From contig NZ_JADQBH010000284.1 of the NCBI RefSeq assembly GCF_016278715.1, positions 1-58,503 of the forward strand: 58,503 nt of DNA, read 5' to 3'. This document shows, in pieces, positions 6,640-57,100 of this stretch (positions within the stretch are counted from its first letter, which is position 1; the number at the start of each line of letters is the position of its first letter). The DNA comes from Marinilabilia sp. GTDB taxonomy: Bacteria > Bacteroidota > Bacteroidia > Bacteroidales > Marinilabiliaceae. The notes beneath the pieces are model-generated. The model was given only the letters and a program-made list of their open reading frames with translations, was not told the DNA's origin and ran no database searches. The position numbers and the translations under genes are program-made.

Positions 6640-6762
6640 TCCAAACCATTTCACCATTCTACCATCTCACCCTTCCACCCTTCCACCCTTCCACCCTTTC
6701 ACCCTTCCACCCTTTCACCCTTCCACCCTTTCACCCTTCCACCTTTGCCATTCTCCCTGCCC
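6640..6762 (-). repeat. polypyrimidine tandem repeat
   Basis: About ten degenerate tandem units of the type CACCCTTCCACCCTTT between the HlyD-type gene and the IVS-type gene. On the sense strand this reads as an uninterrupted purine tract (GGTGGAAGGGTGAAAGG). Related words occur at about 130-160, 2780-2800, 5310-5340, 6100-6210 and 8140-8190. Confidence 0.7.
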
Positions 6763-9731: not shown

Positions 9732-11086
9732 AGTTTTCTTTTATAACACATTCCGTCATTGTTATTCTTCTGATTGCGACATCAGCAATTACAGCAGGAT
9801 GGGGCTTCTTCGACTTAAACAGCCAACTGCTCGGAATGATGGCTTCACTTTCATTTTTGTTGCTGATCTGGCATCTGATCTCCTATCAAGCCCGGCTGTT
9901 TAGAAAAATAAACTATTTTTTTGATGCGGTACGAAATGAAGACTCTGCACTATCCTTTCCCAAAAATAACAATGACAAATTTCTTAACCAGCTTAGTTCA
10001 AATCTTGACAGAATTAACGAACAACTAAAACGAATAAAGACGGAAAGCCATCAACGAGAACAATATTTTCAAACGCTAACAGAACATGTAGCCACAGGAA
10101 TAATCTCTTTTGACGAAACCGGTTTCATCCTTAATGCTAACAAAAGCCTGAAACGAATGCTGGGCCTCGAGCAACTTACCCACCTCCGGCAACTGAAGAA
10201 AGTGGACGGCCAGCTGGCCAATATGCTGTTGAACCTTCCCCCCGGAAATCAGCGAATGCTTACCATCAAAACGGCAGTCGGAAGAACTGTCAACCTCCTA
10301 ATAAAATCAACTTCTTTTAAGAATGAAAACCGCACACTCAGGTTGGTTTCACTTCAAGACATCAATGACCAACTTAGCGAACAGGAGTTGGATTCATGGC
10401 TCAAATTAATCAGAGTACTCACACATGAAATCATGAACTCAATTGCGCCGGTTACTTCACTTTCTGAAAACCTCAGGAACCTGTACACCCGGGAGGGAAA
10501 AGTGATTACACCGGAAATGGTTTCCGAAACTGTTATCGCCAAAACAGCAAAGGGGCTGGAAGTCATTGAACAACAAGGCAAAGGACTCATTAGATTCGTG
10601 GAATCGTACCGAAAACTCACGCGGCTTCCAAAACCGGAAATAAAGCCGGTCAACCTCAAAAACCTTATTGAAAACACCGTACTCCTCAATAAATCCTCCT
10701 GGCCTGACCTGCGAATATCCTTGCAAATTCTGGATGCCGATTTACGCATCCCGGCAGATGAAAAATTATTCTCGCAGGTGCTGATAAACCTGCTCAAAAA
10801 TTCAGCAGAGGCTCTTGAAGGTAATGATAATGGAAAAATATCAATTACAGTTTTACTCAACCCGGATAACCGGGTAGAAATCACCATTAAAGACAATGGT
10901 CCCGGCATTCCACCCGGCATCATGGAAGAAATTTTTGTGCCCTTTTTTACCACCCGTGAAAATGGCAGTGGCATAGGACTGAGCTTGTCCCGGCAAATCA
11001 TCCGTCTTCATGGAGGAAAACTTAACGCCAGGTCGCAGCCTGGTAAAGAAACCGTCTTTTGCATTGAAGTTGATTCGGCAGATTAA
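9728..11086 (+). CDS. sensor histidine kinase (NtrY-like)
   Basis: Inner-membrane kinase of 452 residues, partner of the preceding regulator. Two TMs (about 6-27 and 34-53) are separated by only a few residues, so there is almost no periplasmic sensor. A linker leads to a PAS-like domain (about 112-215), an H-box with H233 in LTHEIMNSIAP, and a HATPase domain (NLLKNSAEAL, DNGPGIPPG, FVPFFTTR, GSGIGLSLSRQI). Sensing is therefore probably intramembrane, by contact with a partner such as the ABC permeases, or cytoplasmic through PAS. It starts within the regulator's stop region (ATGA overlap). Confidence 0.92.
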   Translation: MKFSFITHSVIVILLIATSAITAGWGFFDLNSQLLGMMASLSFLLLIWHLISYQARLFRKINYFFDAVRNEDSALSFPKNNNDKFLNQLSSNLDRINEQLKRIKTESHQREQYFQTLTEHVATGIISFDETGFILNANKSLKRMLGLEQLTHLRQLKKVDGQLANMLLNLPPGNQRMLTIKTAVGRTVNLLIKSTSFKNENRTLRLVSLQDINDQLSEQELDSWLKLIRVLTHEIMNSIAPVTSLSENLRNLYTREGKVITPEMVSETVIAKTAKGLEVIEQQGKGLIRFVESYRKLTRLPKPEIKPVNLKNLIENTVLLNKSSWPDLRISLQILDADLRIPADEKLFSQVLINLLKNSAEALEGNDNGKISITVLLNPDNRVEITIKDNGPGIPPGIMEEIFVPFFTTRENGSGIGLSLSRQIIRLHGGKLNARSQPGKETVFCIEVDSAD

Positions 11087-36725: not shown

Positions 36726-37613
36726 ATGTCCATTCTATCACATATCCTTCCTCAGGATGCATTACCTATCCGACTGAGCGATTACGGTCCGGGAATTTTC
36801 CCGGGTCTCCCCACCAAATCAGCCTTCAAAAAAGCATTGAAAAAGGGAGAGATACTGGTTGACGGACAGTCAGGAACCACAGGACACATCGTTAAGCCCG
36901 GGGAGAAAATTACCTGGAAAGCAACTGTTCAAAGGCCTGTAAAACTCTACCATATTGATCTGATGGTAATTTTTGAAGACGATTTTCTGGCTATCGTGAA
37001 TAAACCGGCAGGTGTGGTGGTCAGCGGCAATCAGTTCCGCACGCTGGAAAACGCCATACCCCTGCACTTGAAACCATCTCCGCATACGGATGCTCTGGCG
37101 TCACCAAAAGCAATTCACCGGCTTGATGCCCCAACCAGCGGATTGATTATTATTGCCAAAACAGCGGGGGCCCGCGTAAAGCTGTCCACCCGAATGCAAC
37201 AAAAAGAAATTCATAAAACTTACACCGCCGTTGTTATTGGAGAAACTGAAGAATCCTGGAGTTCCGAGACTCCGATAGATGAAAAACCGGCGAAGACTTT
37301 ATTTAAAAAAATTACCTCAACCCCTTCCCTGCGCAGTGGTACTCTAACCCTGGTGGAAGCAAAACCAATAACCGGACGTACGCATCAAATAAGAAAACAC
37401 CTTGCAGAAGCAGGAACACCTATCCTGGGAGACAAATTATATGGCAAAGAGGGGTTGATCATGAAAGGAAAAGGATTGTTCCTTTGTGCAACACAAGTGG
37501 ATTTCTCTCACCCCTCTTCAGGTGAACAAATGAGCATTGAAATCCCACCTCCTAAAAAATTTGAGAAGTTTATGCAGGATGAACAACGGAGATGGGAGAA
37601 GTACAGGGTGTGA
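36726..37613 (+). CDS. RluA family pseudouridine synthase
   Basis: Cytoplasmic RNA-modifying enzyme of 295 residues from ATG 36726, converting uridine to pseudouridine in rRNA or tRNA. The N-terminal S4-like region (AFKKALKKGEILVDGQSGTTGHIVKPGE, about 35-70) is followed by the catalytic domain with IVNKPAGVVV and the RluA motif AIHRLDAPTSGL, whose Asp is the catalytic residue, and ITGRTHQIRKHLAEAGTPILGD near the C-terminus. It stands alone. Which site it modifies cannot be read from sequence. Confidence 0.9.
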   Translation: MSILSHILPQDALPIRLSDYGPGIFPGLPTKSAFKKALKKGEILVDGQSGTTGHIVKPGEKITWKATVQRPVKLYHIDLMVIFEDDFLAIVNKPAGVVVSGNQFRTLENAIPLHLKPSPHTDALASPKAIHRLDAPTSGLIIIAKTAGARVKLSTRMQQKEIHKTYTAVVIGETEESWSSETPIDEKPAKTLFKKITSTPSLRSGTLTLVEAKPITGRTHQIRKHLAEAGTPILGDKLYGKEGLIMKGKGLFLCATQVDFSHPSSGEQMSIEIPPPKKFEKFMQDEQRRWEKYRV

Positions 37614-37760
37614 GTTTTGGGTTCTGAGTTTTGGGTTCTGAGTTTTGAGTTCTGGGTTCTTAGTTCTTAGTTGAGTTCTGAGTTTTGAGTTGAGTTGCGG
37701 CTTGAGAGTTTATTTCGAGTGGCGTGTTTTGAGTTTTGGGTTTTGGTTGCGGGTTTGCAG
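37614..37760 (+). repeat. low-complexity GGGTTCTGAGTTTT repeat
   Basis: Roughly ten degenerate units of GGGTTCTGAGTTTT/TGAGTTCT begin immediately after the RluA stop codon. The same words occur in reverse complement at 57050-57098 after the zwf/before the pgl gene, again with GGGTTCTGAG on the sense strand. Confidence 0.65.
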
Positions 37761-38093: not shown

Positions 38094-38975
38094 TTATCCA
38101 CTTAACCCCCGTATCTCTTCCACAATCTCTTTGGTGGGCCGGAAACCACAGTCATAAATGGGAATCTGGGAAGCAATATCCAGAATACGATCCAAATGCC
38201 GGCCGGTCATCTCTTTATCGTAGAAATGCTGGATGCCGTTGGCCATAAAACGCATGGCAGCATTGATACCCGTGAGTTTGGTGACTTCGTTTTCAGGCGA
38301 CTGCCGAATAAGAAAGATTTCGTTGAGTGGCGCCATCTGTGGTTCCTGAGCATAATAAGGCATCGGAGTATTGAACATAAACCAGCAGCCATCGACCTTA
38401 CGCAGCCACAGCCTGTCGTCGTTAATTAAAGTTGCCCCTTCATTTTTCCAGATACCTGCCATCGTACTTTTGCCTGTGCCTGATACGGCGGTAAAAAGGC
38501 GACCGGTGCCATTTTCTAAAACCCCGGATGCATGAACCAGCACATCGTCCTGAAAATGCGCCAGCACAACCATCAGTACAGAGCCAAAAGGTTGGAAAAG
38601 CGGGTCAATGATAATATTTTCAAGGCCTTTTCGGGGAACCAGTGTTCCCAAAATAGTCTCTTTTGTAAAATCAATGACACCCAAGACTTCTTTTAATTGA
38701 GGGTCATCATCAAAAATCACCTGAATGGCAATCTCCTTGTCTCTACGAAAAATAGTCCAGGAATAAGGAATTTCAGCTCCGGGAAAAGATTCCCCTGATA
38801 GAGCACGGGAAAAACCAGTTGAGTTAATAGATTCAGAAAGAGAATAAGATACCTCAAAGGATTTGTAATCTTCGGTAAGAGAATGATTGTATAAAGAACT
38901 TCCAAAAGAAGAAAGTTTTATTTCAGAGGAAAATGTTTTGAAATTCAATCGCAGTCCGGGAAGAAAAACATCCAT
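38094..38975 (-). CDS. HPr kinase-like P-loop protein (peptide cassette)
   Basis: Cytoplasmic protein of 293 residues related to the HprK/PEPCK-like kinase fold. The segment VLVHASGVLENG (about 145-156) matches the conserved His-containing strand. Walker A is AVSGTGKST at 163-171 (first Gly of GxSGxGKS replaced by Ala). The acidic pair is D186-D187 in LINDDR. The first about 110 residues are specific to this group and lack the N-terminal domain of genuine HPr kinase. Homologues in lasso-peptide clusters phosphorylate the precursor. The gene begins 20 bases after the small peptide gene and is third in the PqqD-peptide-kinase operon. The actual substrate is unknown. Confidence 0.82.
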   Translation of the reverse strand: MDVFLPGLRLNFKTFSSEIKLSSFGSSLYNHSLTEDYKSFEVSYSLSESINSTGFSRALSGESFPGAEIPYSWTIFRRDKEIAIQVIFDDDPQLKEVLGVIDFTKETILGTLVPRKGLENIIIDPLFQPFGSVLMVVLAHFQDDVLVHASGVLENGTGRLFTAVSGTGKSTMAGIWKNEGATLINDDRLWLRKVDGCWFMFNTPMPYYAQEPQMAPLNEIFLIRQSPENEVTKLTGINAAMRFMANGIQHFYDKEMTGRHLDRILDIASQIPIYDCGFRPTKEIVEEIRGLSG

Positions 38976-38995
38976 GATGCAGTTGCTATTAGAAC

Positions 38996-39241
38996 CTATC
39001 GTTCATAGGTAGGTGTACCACCACCGAAAGGATTGTCTTTGGGGTATTGTTGAGTCTCGTTGTAGTTCGGTTGATCTGTAGTTGTCAAGTCTTCCTGTGA
39101 CGTAGATCCTGCAACAAATGGAGGATCAGTATTTGAAGTCATCACTAGGGAGATTTCTCTATCAATATCCACCACCTCCATCACCGGTTTCCGGTAGGCC
39201 TTTTTACGAATCTCTATATGTAAGTTATTCCCAATTCTCAT
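38996..39241 (-). CDS. small peptide, putative modified/phosphorylated precursor
   Basis: Protein of 81 residues with no signal peptide. The N-terminal half is leader-like and charged (RKAYRKP around 13-19, then EVVDIDREISLVM at 22-34). From about residue 35 the composition changes sharply to Ser/Thr/Pro/Gly/Asn/Gln with many hydroxyl residues (T35, S36, T38, S46-S48, T53-T55, Y60, T63, Y66, T76, T78, Y79) and no Cys. It sits 5 bases after a PqqD-like gene and 20 bases before an HprK-like kinase gene, on the same strand. This is the architecture expected of a RiPP-type precursor or a kinase substrate. I do not recognise a characterised family. Confidence 0.75.
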   Translation of the reverse strand: MRIGNNLHIEIRKKAYRKPVMEVVDIDREISLVMTSNTDPPFVAGSTSQEDLTTTDQPNYNETQQYPKDNPFGGGTPTYER

Positions 39242-39246
39242 TCGGG

Positions 39247-39561
39247 TTAAAATCTCTCTTGGTTAATTATTTCAACAACTTTTTTGTCAATGGCTGTCTT
39301 TAGGAAATCATCTATGTCAGCTTCAAGTGTTGCCTTATCTACGTCGTATAGGGTAAAAAGGTTTTCGGTCATCTCCTCAATGGTCTTCGGGTTCTCCAGA
39401 ATTTTCAGGATATCAGCCCCCACCTCATTGAGCGTTAACACGCTGGTCATATCGGCTACCTTATCGGTCAACGGAACCATTACCATTTCGCTACCCATCT
39501 GGCGGGTAACAAATTGTTCAGCATTCAACCGGTAAAGTACTCTTTGTTTATCCACGCTCAC
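39247..39561 (-). CDS. PqqD-like peptide-binding (RRE) protein
   Basis: Protein of 104 residues with the PqqD fold pattern: a beta-strand start (RYRLNAEQF-like VLYRLNAEQFVTRQ), then TSVLTLNEVGADILKILENPKTIEEMTENLFTLYDVDKATLEADIDDFLKTAIDKKVVEI. PqqD-like domains bind leader peptides of ribosomally made peptides and present them to modifying enzymes. No PQQ biosynthesis genes are nearby. The only plausible clients are the peptide encoded 5 bases downstream and the HprK-like kinase after it. First gene of the cassette. Confidence 0.85.
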   Translation of the reverse strand: MSVDKQRVLYRLNAEQFVTRQMGSEMVMVPLTDKVADMTSVLTLNEVGADILKILENPKTIEEMTENLFTLYDVDKATLEADIDDFLKTAIDKKVVEIINQERF

Positions 39562-39649: not shown

Positions 39650-39819
39650 AAGTGGAAATGAGGTTGAGGCTGAGGTTAAGAAGTTTTTATTGAACAGTCA
39701 CATTTCTTAAAGATTTGCTGACTTTTGTATAAAGGCACATCAGCAAATTTAATAGTTGATCCCGGCCCGGAATGGAATCCTCAATCTCAACCTCAACCTC
39801 AACCTTAGCCTCATTCTTT
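39650..39819. repeat. inverted ATGAGGTTGAGG / CCTCAACCTCAT word repeats
   Basis: ATGAGGTTGAGGCTGAGG at about 39659-39676 and CTCAACCTCAACCTCAACC at about 39785-39803, in opposite orientation. Related words occur at 37971-37998. It fills the spacer between the PqqD-like gene and the tsaD stop codon. Confidence 0.5.
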
Positions 39820-40839
39820 TTATATTCCCATCCTGGCATACGGGGCCACTTCTTGTCCCACAAACTCTTGTTTCTGATATTTAAACAATCCCGTAATGGC
39901 AATCATGGCCGCATTATCGGTAGTATAGGCAAATTTAGGAATATAGGTTTTCCAGCCGTACTTCTCATTTCCATCCAGAAAAGCCTGGCGCAATCCCGAA
40001 TTGGCAGACACCCCACCAGCAAGCGCAATCTCTTTGATTCCGGTTTTTTTTGCTGCAGCCACCAGTTTGTCCATCAGAATATCCACTATTGTTTTCTGCA
40101 AAGATGCACACAAATCGTTTTTATGATTTTCCACAAAATCGGGTTCTTCCTTAATGTGGTCCCTCAAAAAATAGAGAAAAGAAGTTTTCAAGCCACTGAA
40201 GCTGTAATCGAAGTTGGCAATACGGGGTTTGGAAAACTGAAATGCATCCGCGTTTCCCTCCTTAGCCAGTTTGTCAACAAGGGGGCCCCCGGGATAAGGA
40301 AGTCCCATCACTTTGGCGCATTTATCAAAAGCCTCTCCGGCAGCATCATCAATGGTCTGGCCGATAATTTCCATATCCAGGAAATCCTTTACCAGTACAA
40401 TCTGACTATTTCCACCGGAGACCAGCAAACATAAAAAAGGAAACTTCGGTGTCTCATGCCTTTCTTCACGTTCCTGAATGTAATGTGCCAAAACATGAGC
40501 CTGCAGATGGTTTACTTCAATTAAAGGAATTTTTCGTGCCAGGGCAAACCCTTTAGCGAAGCTGGTGCCAACGAGCAAAGACCCCATCAACCCGGGTCCC
40601 CGGGTAAATGCTACAGCAGAAATTTCCTCAGGAGCAACCCCGGCATCCTTCATAGCTTTATGCACCACTGGGATAATGTTTTGCTGATGAGCCCGTGAAG
40701 CAAGTTCGGGCACCACACCACCATATTCCTCATGTACCTTTTGTCCGGCAATAATATTGGAAAGAATGACATCACCTTTTATGATTGCAGCAGAAGTATC
40801 GTCGCAAGAAGATTCTATACCTAGGATAATGGGATTCAT
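39820..40839 (-). CDS. tsaD: tRNA N6-adenosine threonylcarbamoyltransferase
   Basis: Essential cytoplasmic enzyme of 339 residues that transfers the threonylcarbamoyl group to A37 of ANN-decoding tRNAs, with TsaB/TsaE. It has the N-terminal ASKHA motif GIESSCDDTSAAI, the metal-binding HLQAH (EVNHLQAHVLAH, about 107-118), the LCLLVSGGNSQIVLV loop and GGVSANSGLRQAF near the C-terminus. Full length for the family. A TATCTTTA box precedes it. In relatives I recall this gene lying next to tamB; here the two are about 11 kb apart. Confidence 0.96.
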   Translation of the reverse strand: MNPIILGIESSCDDTSAAIIKGDVILSNIIAGQKVHEEYGGVVPELASRAHQQNIIPVVHKAMKDAGVAPEEISAVAFTRGPGLMGSLLVGTSFAKGFALARKIPLIEVNHLQAHVLAHYIQEREERHETPKFPFLCLLVSGGNSQIVLVKDFLDMEIIGQTIDDAAGEAFDKCAKVMGLPYPGGPLVDKLAKEGNADAFQFSKPRIANFDYSFSGLKTSFLYFLRDHIKEEPDFVENHKNDLCASLQKTIVDILMDKLVAAAKKTGIKEIALAGGVSANSGLRQAFLDGNEKYGWKTYIPKFAYTTDNAAMIAITGLFKYQKQEFVGQEVAPYARMGI

Positions 40840-54700: not shown

Positions 54701-56111
54701 TCGCGACCTTACCTTAAAAGACCGCCATGGCAAAAAAGGGAATTTCAAAGGCTCCATCTATCACGATAATTTTACCAATATGGTTTACAACCTGCAAATG
54801 GATGTAAATAAAATGCTGGTACTGGACACAAAGATTAAAGACAGTCCCTATTATTACGGAACTGTTTATGCCAATGGCCAGCTAATGGTAACAGGAACCA
54901 CCCGAACCATTGAATTGAACATAGAGGGTGAAACATTGGAGAACACCAGATTCTTTATACCAATGGCCAACAAGGAAGAGGCGGTACAAAGTAACTTCAT
55001 CCAGTTTATTGGCAAAGAGGGAGACAACCAACAAATCAGGGTTAATTCGGGTTCAGAGGAATACCAAGTGGACCTTTCAGGCCTGGCACTAAATATGGAA
55101 ATTGATGTAACGCCTCAAGCCCGCATAGAAATTATCTTTGATTCCACTCTGGGAGATTTGCTTAGTGCATCAGGTGATGGCAATATTCAGATTCAAATCG
55201 ACCGACAGGGGAATATTAGTTTTTTTGGCGATTACATTATTGACCGTGGAGAGTATCTTTTCTCCCTGCAAAACCTTGTAAACAAGAAATTTGCCATCAA
55301 TAAAGGGGGAGTGGTTTCATGGCAGGGGGCACCCTACGATGCGAAAATTGATCTCACTGCAGTTTACAAAGTAAAAGCCTCTCTTTCCGATTTGGTAGGT
55401 CCCATGGGTAATGGCTCTTCAGGTGAAGAAAGCAGCGACCTCCAGCGACGCATCCCTATCAATTGTAATCTGATGCTCAATGGCCCTCTGGAAAAACCAG
55501 GGATCAAATTCGGACTGGAAGCACCTACGCTTACTGAAAGCCGGGAAAGCTACATGCTTGATTTCATCTCCACGGAAGACGAAATGAACAGGCAGGTCCT
55601 GTCATTGCTGGTTTTGAATCGTTTTTACACTCCCGAATACATGCGTATGGGCAGCGACGCCGGACTCCAAACCAACAACGCCGCCCTGGTCACCACCACA
55701 GAGATGCTCTCGAACCAACTAAGCCGCTGGCTTTCCAATATAAGCAATGATGTAGATATAGGTGTCAGTTACCGACCCGAAGATAATATCTCAAGTGAGG
55801 AAATTGAGGTGGCCTTGTCAACCCAAATGTTTAACAATCGCGTGAGCATCAATGGTAATGTGGGTTATGGAAGATATCAGACCAATACAAGTAAAATGGT
55901 AGGGGATTTTGATATGGATGTAAAACTCAACCCCAGCGGAAACATCCGGGCAAAAGCATATACCCGTTCAAACGATGATATCATTTACGAAACATCTCCG
56001 ACCACCCAGGGCATCGGACTTTCTTTCAAAGAGGAATTCGACCATGTTATCAATTTATTACAGAGATACTGGCAGGCACTAACCGGGAAAGAGAGTGACA
56101 ATGAACAATGA
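51723..56111 (+). CDS. TamB-like translocation/assembly module (DUF490) protein
   Basis: Envelope protein of about 1462 residues, probably bridging the periplasm for lipid or outer-membrane protein delivery. The N-terminal TM (LLVIIGLPLLGSIIFMLPG) is followed by long repetitive beta-rich AsmA/TamB segments, and the DUF490 C-terminus (about 1000-1420: FFGDYIIDRGEYLFSLQNLVNKKFAINKGG, SLLVLNRFY). Start is uncertain: the TM begins upstream of the TTG at 51723, yet the frame back to a TAA at 51651 has no ATG, and an in-frame ATG (51618) lies before that stop. Alternative start codon, nonsense mutation or sequence error are all possible. Confidence 0.88.
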   Translation: MLVIIGLPLLGSIIFMLPGVQTRVVTSVTNRLSHDLNTEISIGRIQALPFSGIRIKDLLVRDLHNDTLMFAPEVHSEIDYFSFFKKHIFLGRVKLTSPNLNLKQEGEAMNFTFLLDSLKKNKPDTVKWHYSVRGVDIENGRITLSNSIFQNESFKIDALEFSELNLSATRTSNVNDSLNFKLENLSLVEKTGLKITGAGAEGKIREDKISIQDIFLTTDKSDLSIKKLEFTRNPKETGPSAEQRFHTELDKLLISPKELALYFHGIPVPDNPLVLSGEISGSLKNIKGRNIVLSLGRRTRLKTSFDLTDLSNFRETFIFMTIEQLQTTSDDILKFSKKSQDPPAFLENLGMIHYTGNLTGFFSDMVAFGTFDTEFGSLSTDIGVKFSKEEGISFSGSLSTRDFQTGRAFSNKNNPGNLSMDIELNGFWKNRKSYFAYLMGDINSFEWNEYIYQDININGLFTYQRFDGSVEMLDPNGIFRFNGEIDASGKTPVFQFRAELENVLPDRLNLVPSMKNAVVTLSAGANFKGDNIDNLSGKIDITEGLIYTPKTSLSLDSLSLHAYQKGAVKKIELTSDFIEGEISGHYNFSKFRQSFLDMASHYLPSLTNREPGRDLPENKFDFNFNFNGFDRAAAIILPGLEAASSGTLKGRVDSENKILIIDANFEKIGYKGISVDDIEFHANTLEKNNLEVILRTSKIERDNTIALYNFSMHNKASKDTLGVNLFWNNWDEVTNSGAIYTTTAFRRDKNKKFYSDIRLGPSTVILRDSVWNISEAHGFITPVSFSIQGLEIDHSGQRLALNGFLHKKSMDGLRLEMDNIDLAQFLGKNSQLKHRFGGTADGSIELKNFYRTPLWTANFSIDQFSFNTDTMGFFTLGSRWNSEKDVLEVNTSLMQEDRQPLIGEGYINPSENKMNIGVKLDHFEINFVNTFISNIIQDLNGTASGNLFLTGQLTKPLLSGKINLDEGEFDVDLLQTSYEISDSVWFYPNEIRFRDLTLKDRHGKKGNFKGSIYHDNFTNMVYNLQMDVNKMLVLDTKIKDSPYYYGTVYANGQLMVTGTTRTIELNIEGETLENTRFFIPMANKEEAVQSNFIQFIGKEGDNQQIRVNSGSEEYQVDLSGLALNMEIDVTPQARIEIIFDSTLGDLLSASGDGNIQIQIDRQGNISFFGDYIIDRGEYLFSLQNLVNKKFAINKGGVVSWQGAPYDAKIDLTAVYKVKASLSDLVGPMGNGSSGEESSDLQRRIPINCNLMLNGPLEKPGIKFGLEAPTLTESRESYMLDFISTEDEMNRQVLSLLVLNRFYTPEYMRMGSDAGLQTNNAALVTTTEMLSNQLSRWLSNISNDVDIGVSYRPEDNISSEEIEVALSTQMFNNRVSINGNVGYGRYQTNTSKMVGDFDMDVKLNPSGNIRAKAYTRSNDDIIYETSPTTQGIGLSFKEEFDHVINLLQRYWQALTGKESDNEQ

Positions 56112-56232
56112 GCAATTATCAATGAGCAATTATCAATGAGAACACTATTGTGTGATACCCAAAACCGAAAATTACCACCCTGTAATTGGCAACTAATAAC
56201 TGATAACTGATAATTGAATCCCGTTAACTGAT
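56098..56232 (+). repeat. AATGAGCAATTATC and AACTGATAACTG word repeats
   Basis: Just past the TamB stop: three overlapping AATGAGCAATTATC units (56114-56140 region), then AACTGATAACTGATAATTG near 56200 and again near 56226, the last inside the pgl stop region. Non-coding low-complexity spacer. Confidence 0.55.
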
Positions 56233-56925: not shown

Positions 56926-57049
56926 AATGCTATATTTTTGGGTTCAGAGAATTCTTAATGCTGGAGGTTAGAAAAAATTCTCCACAGCTGACAGCCTAAC
57001 CCCGTTCGGCAATAATCACATCGAAGCCTGAAGAACAAACCCTCCCACA

Positions 57050-57100
57050 ACTCAGAACTCAGAACCCAGAACTCAGAACCCAGAACTCAGAACCCCTATC
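57050..57100 (-). repeat. AACTCAGAACCCAGAACTC word repeat
   Basis: Four to five overlapping units, the reverse complement of those at 37614-37760. Located between pgl and zwf; on the sense strand of those genes it reads GGGTTCTGAG. Confidence 0.65.

Follow-up and report, generated by a model that had tools for sequence, protein, structure and literature searches.

Three adjacent genes of Marinilabilia sp. encode a discrete PqqD-like leader-binding protein (RRE), a precursor peptide and an HprK-like kinase, and we consider it probable, from sequence and by analogy with the LPP pathway of Bacillota, that they make a linear phosphopeptide of the LPP type whose product acts with giant surface proteins of the type IX secretion system (T9SS). 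The genes lie in the window, the 58,503-nucleotide stretch of DNA analysed here, which is one contig (C127) of a draft genome in 326 contigs that is 94% complete (Table 1). A preceding interpretation made from the DNA alone (the sequence-only reading) had described three tightly packed genes on one strand, and the open reading frames (ORFs), all on the minus strand, and the gaps of 5 and 20 bases between them were verified. The trio is not a chance assembly: a kinase homologue (E ≤ 1e-5) was found in 88 of 198 related genomes, and at 61 kinase loci, comprising the window and 60 of the homologue matches, a PqqD ORF is present at 53 and a peptide ORF at 39, both counts being floors because PqqD ORFs were retained up to a length of 150 aa and some loci run into a contig end. 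The expected adjacency in relatives is the rule for RRE and kinase, which are usually neighbours, and holds for the peptide at those 39 loci. The tsaD gene upstream, which we place outside the system, recurs at many kinase loci of the family. At two loci inserted ORFs, transposase-like as named by eye, part PqqD from the kinase (L041, about −2146 to −515 from the kinase; L055, about −1248 to −113), and at L055 the insert also separates the peptide from the kinase. The window further contains degenerate tandem repeats with units of 6–8 bases (TGAGTTC, CCTCAA, ACCATTCC and others) at 37611–37756, 39779–39813, 6645–6743, 56098–56140 and 57049–57095, and comparable repeat-coded ORFs are seen at L135, L194 and L207, from Marinilabilia/Anaerophaga relatives.

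Table 1. Features of the trio and its neighbour, in window coordinates
Feature	Position	Strand	Basis
Discrete RRE (PqqD-like leader-binding protein), 104 aa, GTG start	39247..39561	-	ORF; PF05402
Precursor peptide, 81 aa	38996..39241	-	ORF; homologous ORF at 39/61 kinase loci
Leader block of the peptide, residues 13-36 (KKAYRKPVMEVVDIDREISLVMTS)	39134..39205	-	Invariant Y16, P19, D27, S/T36
Conserved C-terminal tail of the peptide, residues 70-81 (NPFGGGTPTYER)	38999..39034	-	Pro 73/77, Phe 71/77 in aligned columns
HprK-like peptide kinase, 293 aa	38094..38975	-	ORF; weak Pfam match, homologue profile
Kinase His148	38532..38534	-	Aligns with the HPr kinase His 21 residues before the P-loop Lys; 60/60 homologues
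Kinase P-loop VSGTGKST (164-171)	38463..38486	-	S165, G166, G168, K169, T171 in 60/60
Kinase Asp186-Asp187	38415..38420	-	60/60 homologues
tsaD, upstream neighbour; outside the system	39820..40839	-	Pfam TsaD

The comparison that carries this reading is with LPP (2026; lppAKBSDN of Paenibacillus alginolyticus), which consists of a leader-binding RRE, a leader peptide, an HprK-like kinase, a SipW-like signal peptidase, an ABC exporter and an NTP transferase (PMC13381572). According to the same paper, a Y-x-x-P leader is bound by the RRE LppB, the kinase LppK places several phosphates on a core Ser and does not accept Thr there, and LppS (SipW-like, Ser/His/Asp) cuts the leader with the help of the RRE; the remaining members are an MsbA-like pump and an NTP transferase. 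The paper calls the family restricted to the Bacillota, with a patchy pattern, frequent co-location with capsule loci and an unknown biological role (PMC13381572). The genome of the window has all of these core functions: a discrete RRE, a Y-x-x-P leader, an HprK-like kinase, a SipW-like Ser/His/Asp peptidase, an ABC exporter and an NTP transferase. The suggestion that the cassette represents an undescribed kind of system thus has to be given up, since PMC13381572 describes a Bacillota pathway with the same parts. We read the set, on sequence similarity and analogy, as a Bacteroidota LPP-like variant that probably works like LPP; it is not filed as LPP because the published leader motif, YxxPxVLxHQxIxFETxxS, is matched here in YxxPx[V/I/L] and not in HQ, FET or the core Ser. 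What is new here is the other phylum (Bacteroidota, which has no occurrence in PMC13381572, the LPP paper found in the open-access literature searched), the splitting of the genes in Marinilabilia so that they would act in trans, the conserved C-terminal Pro-Phe tail, and the many precursors beside giant T9SS proteins, where for LPP a frequent co-location with capsule loci is reported. The distribution differs as well, with 69 of 71 genomes of one family here against the patchy pattern reported for LPP.

The 104-aa protein exceeds the cut-off of the Pfam PqqD model (PF05402, 48.4 bits, cut-off 23.4) as the sole match of its genome to do so, and stays below that of the PqqD of PQQ biosynthesis (TIGR03859, 26.5 vs 46 bits). 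A profile of 11 RRE homologues matches TbiB1 (5v1u, E = 5.9e-11), PbaB1 (9x90, 6.5e-11) and LppB (9x8z, 6.7e-7), which are leader-binding RREs crystallised with leaders, and these matches, together with PF05402, bear out the predicted assignment as a discrete PqqD-type leader-binding protein. The lasso RREs outscore LppB in this search, which compares profile scores from one query profile. This ranking, with TbiB1 and PbaB1 on top, would also be expected of a decayed lasso-peptide pathway from which protease and cyclase have disappeared, as would the leader motif Y-x-x-P-x-L and the weak match of one precursor to the paeninodin model (E 0.079, below cut-off). Paeninodin-type systems combine an RRE, an HprK-like kinase, an NTP transferase and a Y/W-x-x-P leader; the Bacteroidota set shares these features with them and differs in having a signal peptidase and, in the window's genome, no B2 protease over cut-off. 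Phosphorylated lasso peptides of the paeninodin type are named in PMC13381572. We nevertheless hold such a lasso remnant to be most improbable, given that the best B2 protease match in the window's genome (PF13471) reaches 21.8 bits against a cut-off of 26, in a draft 94% complete, that no cyclase was noticed by eye in 12 loci, and that the peptide alignment has no invariant Gly, Asp or Glu column beyond residue 36. With no B2 over cut-off in that genome, the lasso pathway was rejected as a candidate, as was a defence system, for which the single PADLOC match was weak (PDC-S15, 14.7 bits).

The 293-aa protein is likewise recognised through its homologues. Its own match to Pfam Hpr_kinase_C is weak (12.5 bits, cut-off 33.3), and the best solved structure for a profile of 11 kinase homologues is an HPr kinase (E = 3.3e-5); in the alignment to HPr kinase 1jb1, an ungapped stretch of 54 residues brings the His, the P-loop and the Asp pair into register. 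With a truncated sequence (L086) set aside, none of the 60 aligned homologues departs from the key residues, and the earlier proposal of an HprK-like kinase with its ATP site kept is thereby upheld by sequence conservation. HprK-related kinase A (TIGR04352) occurs with a PqqD-like protein, and kinases A and B (TIGR04355) are likewise HprK-like, yet the window kinase lies far below both NCBIfam cut-offs (22 and 25.9 bits, cut-offs 200). ScmC and ScmD of the SynChlorMet cassette show weak similarity in kinase and RRE (18.4 of 125 and 14.1 of 100 bits). An AlphaFold model of the kinase from six sequences has a mean pLDDT of 58.8 and most of residues 156–293 below 50, a poor domain, and Foldseek returned no match to it at E ≤ 0.001; nothing was drawn from this model.

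The 81-aa peptide has no match in Pfam or NCBIfam at E ≤ 1 or in PADLOC at E ≤ 0.1 and contains no Cys, in line with the Cys-free tail stated previously. In all 79 aligned homologues Y16, P19, D27 and S/T36 are invariant at fixed spacing; when 20 further peptides are included, 99 of 99 carry Y-x-x-P, an Asp at Y+11 and a Ser (57) or Thr (42) at Y+20, although the conservation of Y, P and D is partly ascertainment, since the peptides were detected with profiles. The Y-x-x-P-x-[I/L/V] motif, recognised by homology, supports the assignment as a putative leader-bearing peptide. Across the 79 homologues the middle varies and abounds in Pro, Ser and Thr, and linker and tail are Ser/Thr-rich. The sequence-only reading had proposed, as a test, to look for a conserved leader against a variable tail; the leader is indeed the most conserved part and the middle varies, and the C-terminal end is also conserved. 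The reverse pattern, a conserved tail with a variable leader, is not what the alignment gives, as leader and tail end are both conserved.

Within this block, S/T36 would be the first candidate phosphate acceptor. It is the only column of the alignment occupied entirely by Ser/Thr, the flanking columns holding Ser/Thr in just 9% and 30% of the peptides. It is quite possible, though we lean against it, that the leader ends with S/T36, which the peptidase would recognise in the manner of T-1 of LPP, and that the kinase targets non-conserved Ser/Thr in the core or tail. The spacing M34-x-S/T36 resembles the F-3/E-2/T-1 of LPP, the hydrophobic pattern could end the leader at S/T36, linker and tail offer many Ser/Thr, and the genomes with the peptidase coincide with those with the kinase. 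Against a cleavage-site role speak the singular all-Ser/Thr character of position 36 and the lack of Ala or Gly there in all 99 peptides, unlike a plain small-residue rule. Since LppK refuses Thr, the Thr in 42 of the 99 peptides, a point against the LPP-type reading with S/T36 as acceptor, argues either for a changed kinase specificity here or for S/T36 as the end of the leader.

The further parts of the putative pathway were located by their linkage to the kinase. A signal peptidase ORF of the SipW/archaeal type lies downstream at 41 of the 61 kinase loci (at 40 of them no more than about 1.4 kb from where the kinase match starts, and at 4.3 kb at L092), an ABC exporter is present at 36, and 5 loci have an NTP transferase close to the kinase. 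Neither peptidase nor exporter is seen in the stretch read at 20 of the 61 loci, namely the window and L037–L055 on the Marinilabilia side, several of which are cut by contig ends; this counts against the LPP-type reading. In the window's genome the two lie side by side on contig C241, where the ABC transporter (L171, 9988–11691) matches that of L080 (BLASTP, E = 6e-135), and an NTP transferase is encoded on C229 (PF14907, E = 4e-37). All 16 aligned peptidase sequences keep Ser30, His68 and Asp85, and the L080 peptidase homologue scores 47.3 bits with sigpep_I_arch (cut-off 51.85). At two loci peptidase and exporter form one ORF (L086, 1176–3593, 805 aa; L089, 1716–3956, 746 aa), as if both act together.

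Presence and absence over whole genomes follow the same lines. Kinase and peptidase occur together in 86 of the 198 genomes, the kinase alone in 2 and the peptidase alone in 1, while 109 have neither; for the 127 genomes that do not belong to the window's own family (Marinilabiliaceae) the counts are 18 with both, 1 and 1 with either alone and 107 with neither (p = 1e-19), p-values of this kind being optimistic owing to shared ancestry. For the NTP transferase outside the family, both genes are found in 18 genomes, the kinase alone in 1, the transferase alone in 21 and neither in 87. The kinase itself is present in 69 of the 71 genomes of the family and is patchy outside it; in a phylum-wide sample of 395 genomes it occurs in 12 (E ≤ 1e-15). 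The sequence-only reading had proposed a minimal system lacking protease and exporter, an interpretation that finds no support here, as many relatives have both close to the kinase and this genome encodes them on another contig. From its gene content, we conclude that the trio is the split-off half of a larger peptide-maturation system. A minimal intracellular phospho-switch that regulates without cleavage or export, the form in which that idea was first put, is compatible with the three genes standing alone at the window locus; we regard it as very unlikely, since peptidase and exporter track the kinase, both accompany the trio at other loci, and the peptidase is retained in the genome after leaving the locus.

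The precursors are more dispersed. A peptide profile match was found in 71 of the 198 genomes, and 56 of these 71 contain at least two. Peptide and kinase are both present in 68 genomes, the peptide alone in 3, the kinase alone in 20 and neither in 107, so that no peptide was detected in 20 of the 88 kinase genomes, a point against the LPP-type reading. Some relatives, among them Marinilabilia salmonicolor, M. rubra and Anaerophaga, have no peptide at the kinase locus and encode one with the same leader at another place in the genome. A second precursor type has endings such as NPFER, NPFQR and NPFGE, and the window's genome has one on contig C112. In one genome (G154) there are five precursor genes (L150–L154), which share the leader and resemble one another in their KR-rich middles; the first follows a 930-aa ORF with a sorting-domain tail, the second does not, and the regions upstream of L152–L154, at contig ends, mostly fall outside the sequence. 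Six loci of one genus, g5 (L081, L085, L087, L088, L091, L095), have RRE, kinase and peptidase with no recognisable peptide between them; in this genus the precursors may have diverged further or may lie elsewhere.

The surroundings of the precursors point to the possible partner of the product. Two samples were used, 40 hand-picked precursor loci away from the kinase and 20 loci taken in order of E-value. In the former, a same-strand ORF of more than 600 aa ends 10–34 positions upstream of the precursor at 20 loci, a giant ORF starts close downstream on the same strand at 5 (two cut before the C-terminus) and a convergent giant ORF lies within about 1 kb at 5. The other 10 precursors have no T9SS-like giant by the rule used, which speaks against the link; five of them (L146, L152, L153, L154, L161) have less than 0.9 kb of upstream sequence, and at L161 a cut ORF with a T9SS-like tail, judged by eye, ends 24 positions upstream. 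In the rank-ordered sample, an ORF of more than 600 aa ends 0–48 positions upstream at 17 of the 20 loci; L212 is a kinase-locus copy with the RRE 12 positions upstream and tsaD before it, at L225 a 235-aa ORF cut by the contig start and with a T9SS-like tail (by eye) lies 43 positions upstream, and no giant adjoins the precursor at L221. The giant-upstream layout occurs at 4 of 472 control genes (≥100 aa). The tails of 19 giants, 17 from the 20 upstream ones and 2 from convergent ones, were scanned, and all match the T9SS type A sorting domain at E ≤ 0.1, the first tail scoring 18.3 bits with a cut-off of 23. Of six whole giants scanned with T9SS models, one was over cut-off, two just below and three unmatched at E ≤ 0.01. 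In a Pfam scan of nine giants, six had surface-type domains, namely Big_5 (L130, L137, L140), PKD (L144), GEVED (L193) and Ig (L080), and those of L150, L171 and L190 had the tail alone or nothing relevant.

The association extends to the maturation genes. In other ARRANGEMENTS, at L080, a 1600-aa T9SS protein (39.5 bits, cut-off 23) precedes an RRE-peptide-kinase-peptidase-ABC series by 4 bases, and in the window's genome the peptidase-ABC pair has a divergently oriented neighbour 1.3 kb away, a T9SS protein of 766 aa (24.9 bits; L171). Among 15 other loci with a moved peptidase, a sorting-domain protein lies within about 1.2 kb at 5, over cut-off at L193, L196 and L207 and below it at L199 and L204; at L202 one lies 3.1 kb away (22.9 bits), the giants of L194 and L200 are cut before their end, and the remaining loci have no close one. 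At L190, which lies outside the class, the RRE is followed after 28 positions by the start of a T9SS protein of 837 aa (28.0 bits), and the neighbourhood of L189 resembles it in layout. The ORF at 10190–12703 of L190, which adjoins RRE and kinase, is metalloprotease-like with a T9SS tail (MXAN_6640, 134.3 bits, cut-off 140). The T9SS is nearly universal in the set, with SprA in 185 of the 198 genomes, and its presence is thus uninformative; only adjacency is informative. Adjacency alone is not function, and in so uniform a background it could reflect mere co-transcription, the peptides serving some other purpose outside the cell, for instance antagonism or signalling. We think this unlikely, because the link recurs in several arrangements, with precursors as well as with peptidase and exporter, and far above the control. 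The open-access literature searched contained no paper joining type IX secretion with PqqD, or the T9SS with HPr kinase, and none among those on type IX secretion and RiPPs described such a pairing in its title or the start of its abstract.

Since the parts are those of LPP and the RRE profile finds TbiB1, PbaB1 and LppB, we infer RRE-guided phosphorylation, leader removal and export, and propose the following multistep scheme, in which (i) the PqqD-like RRE would grip the Y-x-x-P-x-I part of the leader and present the peptide to the kinase; (ii) the HprK-like kinase would phosphorylate the peptide, possibly at S/T36; (iii) the SipW-like peptidase encoded on the other contig would remove the leader; (iv) the ABC transporter beside it would export the core, and the NTP transferase may add a further group; and (v) the mature product would act with giant surface proteins secreted by the T9SS. 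Several distant precursors would be served in trans by a single RRE and a single kinase. Leader binding by the RRE, phosphorylation by the kinase and cleavage by the peptidase have been demonstrated for the Bacillota LPP alone (PMC13381572), and the present analysis establishes the genes with their conservation, co-occurrence and adjacency, the intact ATP site and the peptidase triad. The T9SS pairing of the precursors suggests that the product serves the co-encoded giant. How it might do so is more speculative: we tentatively suggest, and consider it rather unlikely in this specific form, that the exported core, recognised by its Pro-Phe tail, binds or becomes joined to the T9SS giant at the surface, for example to anchor, fold or charge it.

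In summary, an LPP-like set is near-universal in one family of Bacteroidota, with the kinase in 69 of 71 genomes. Where one RRE and one kinase serve several distant precursors, kinase-centred mining would miss such precursors. The T9SS pairing offers a concrete, testable partner in the search for what LPP does, and it suggests that some T9SS cargo may depend on a modified peptide as companion. If the exported core does bind or join the giant, LPP-type peptides would serve to decorate or install very large surface proteins, rather than as antibiotics.
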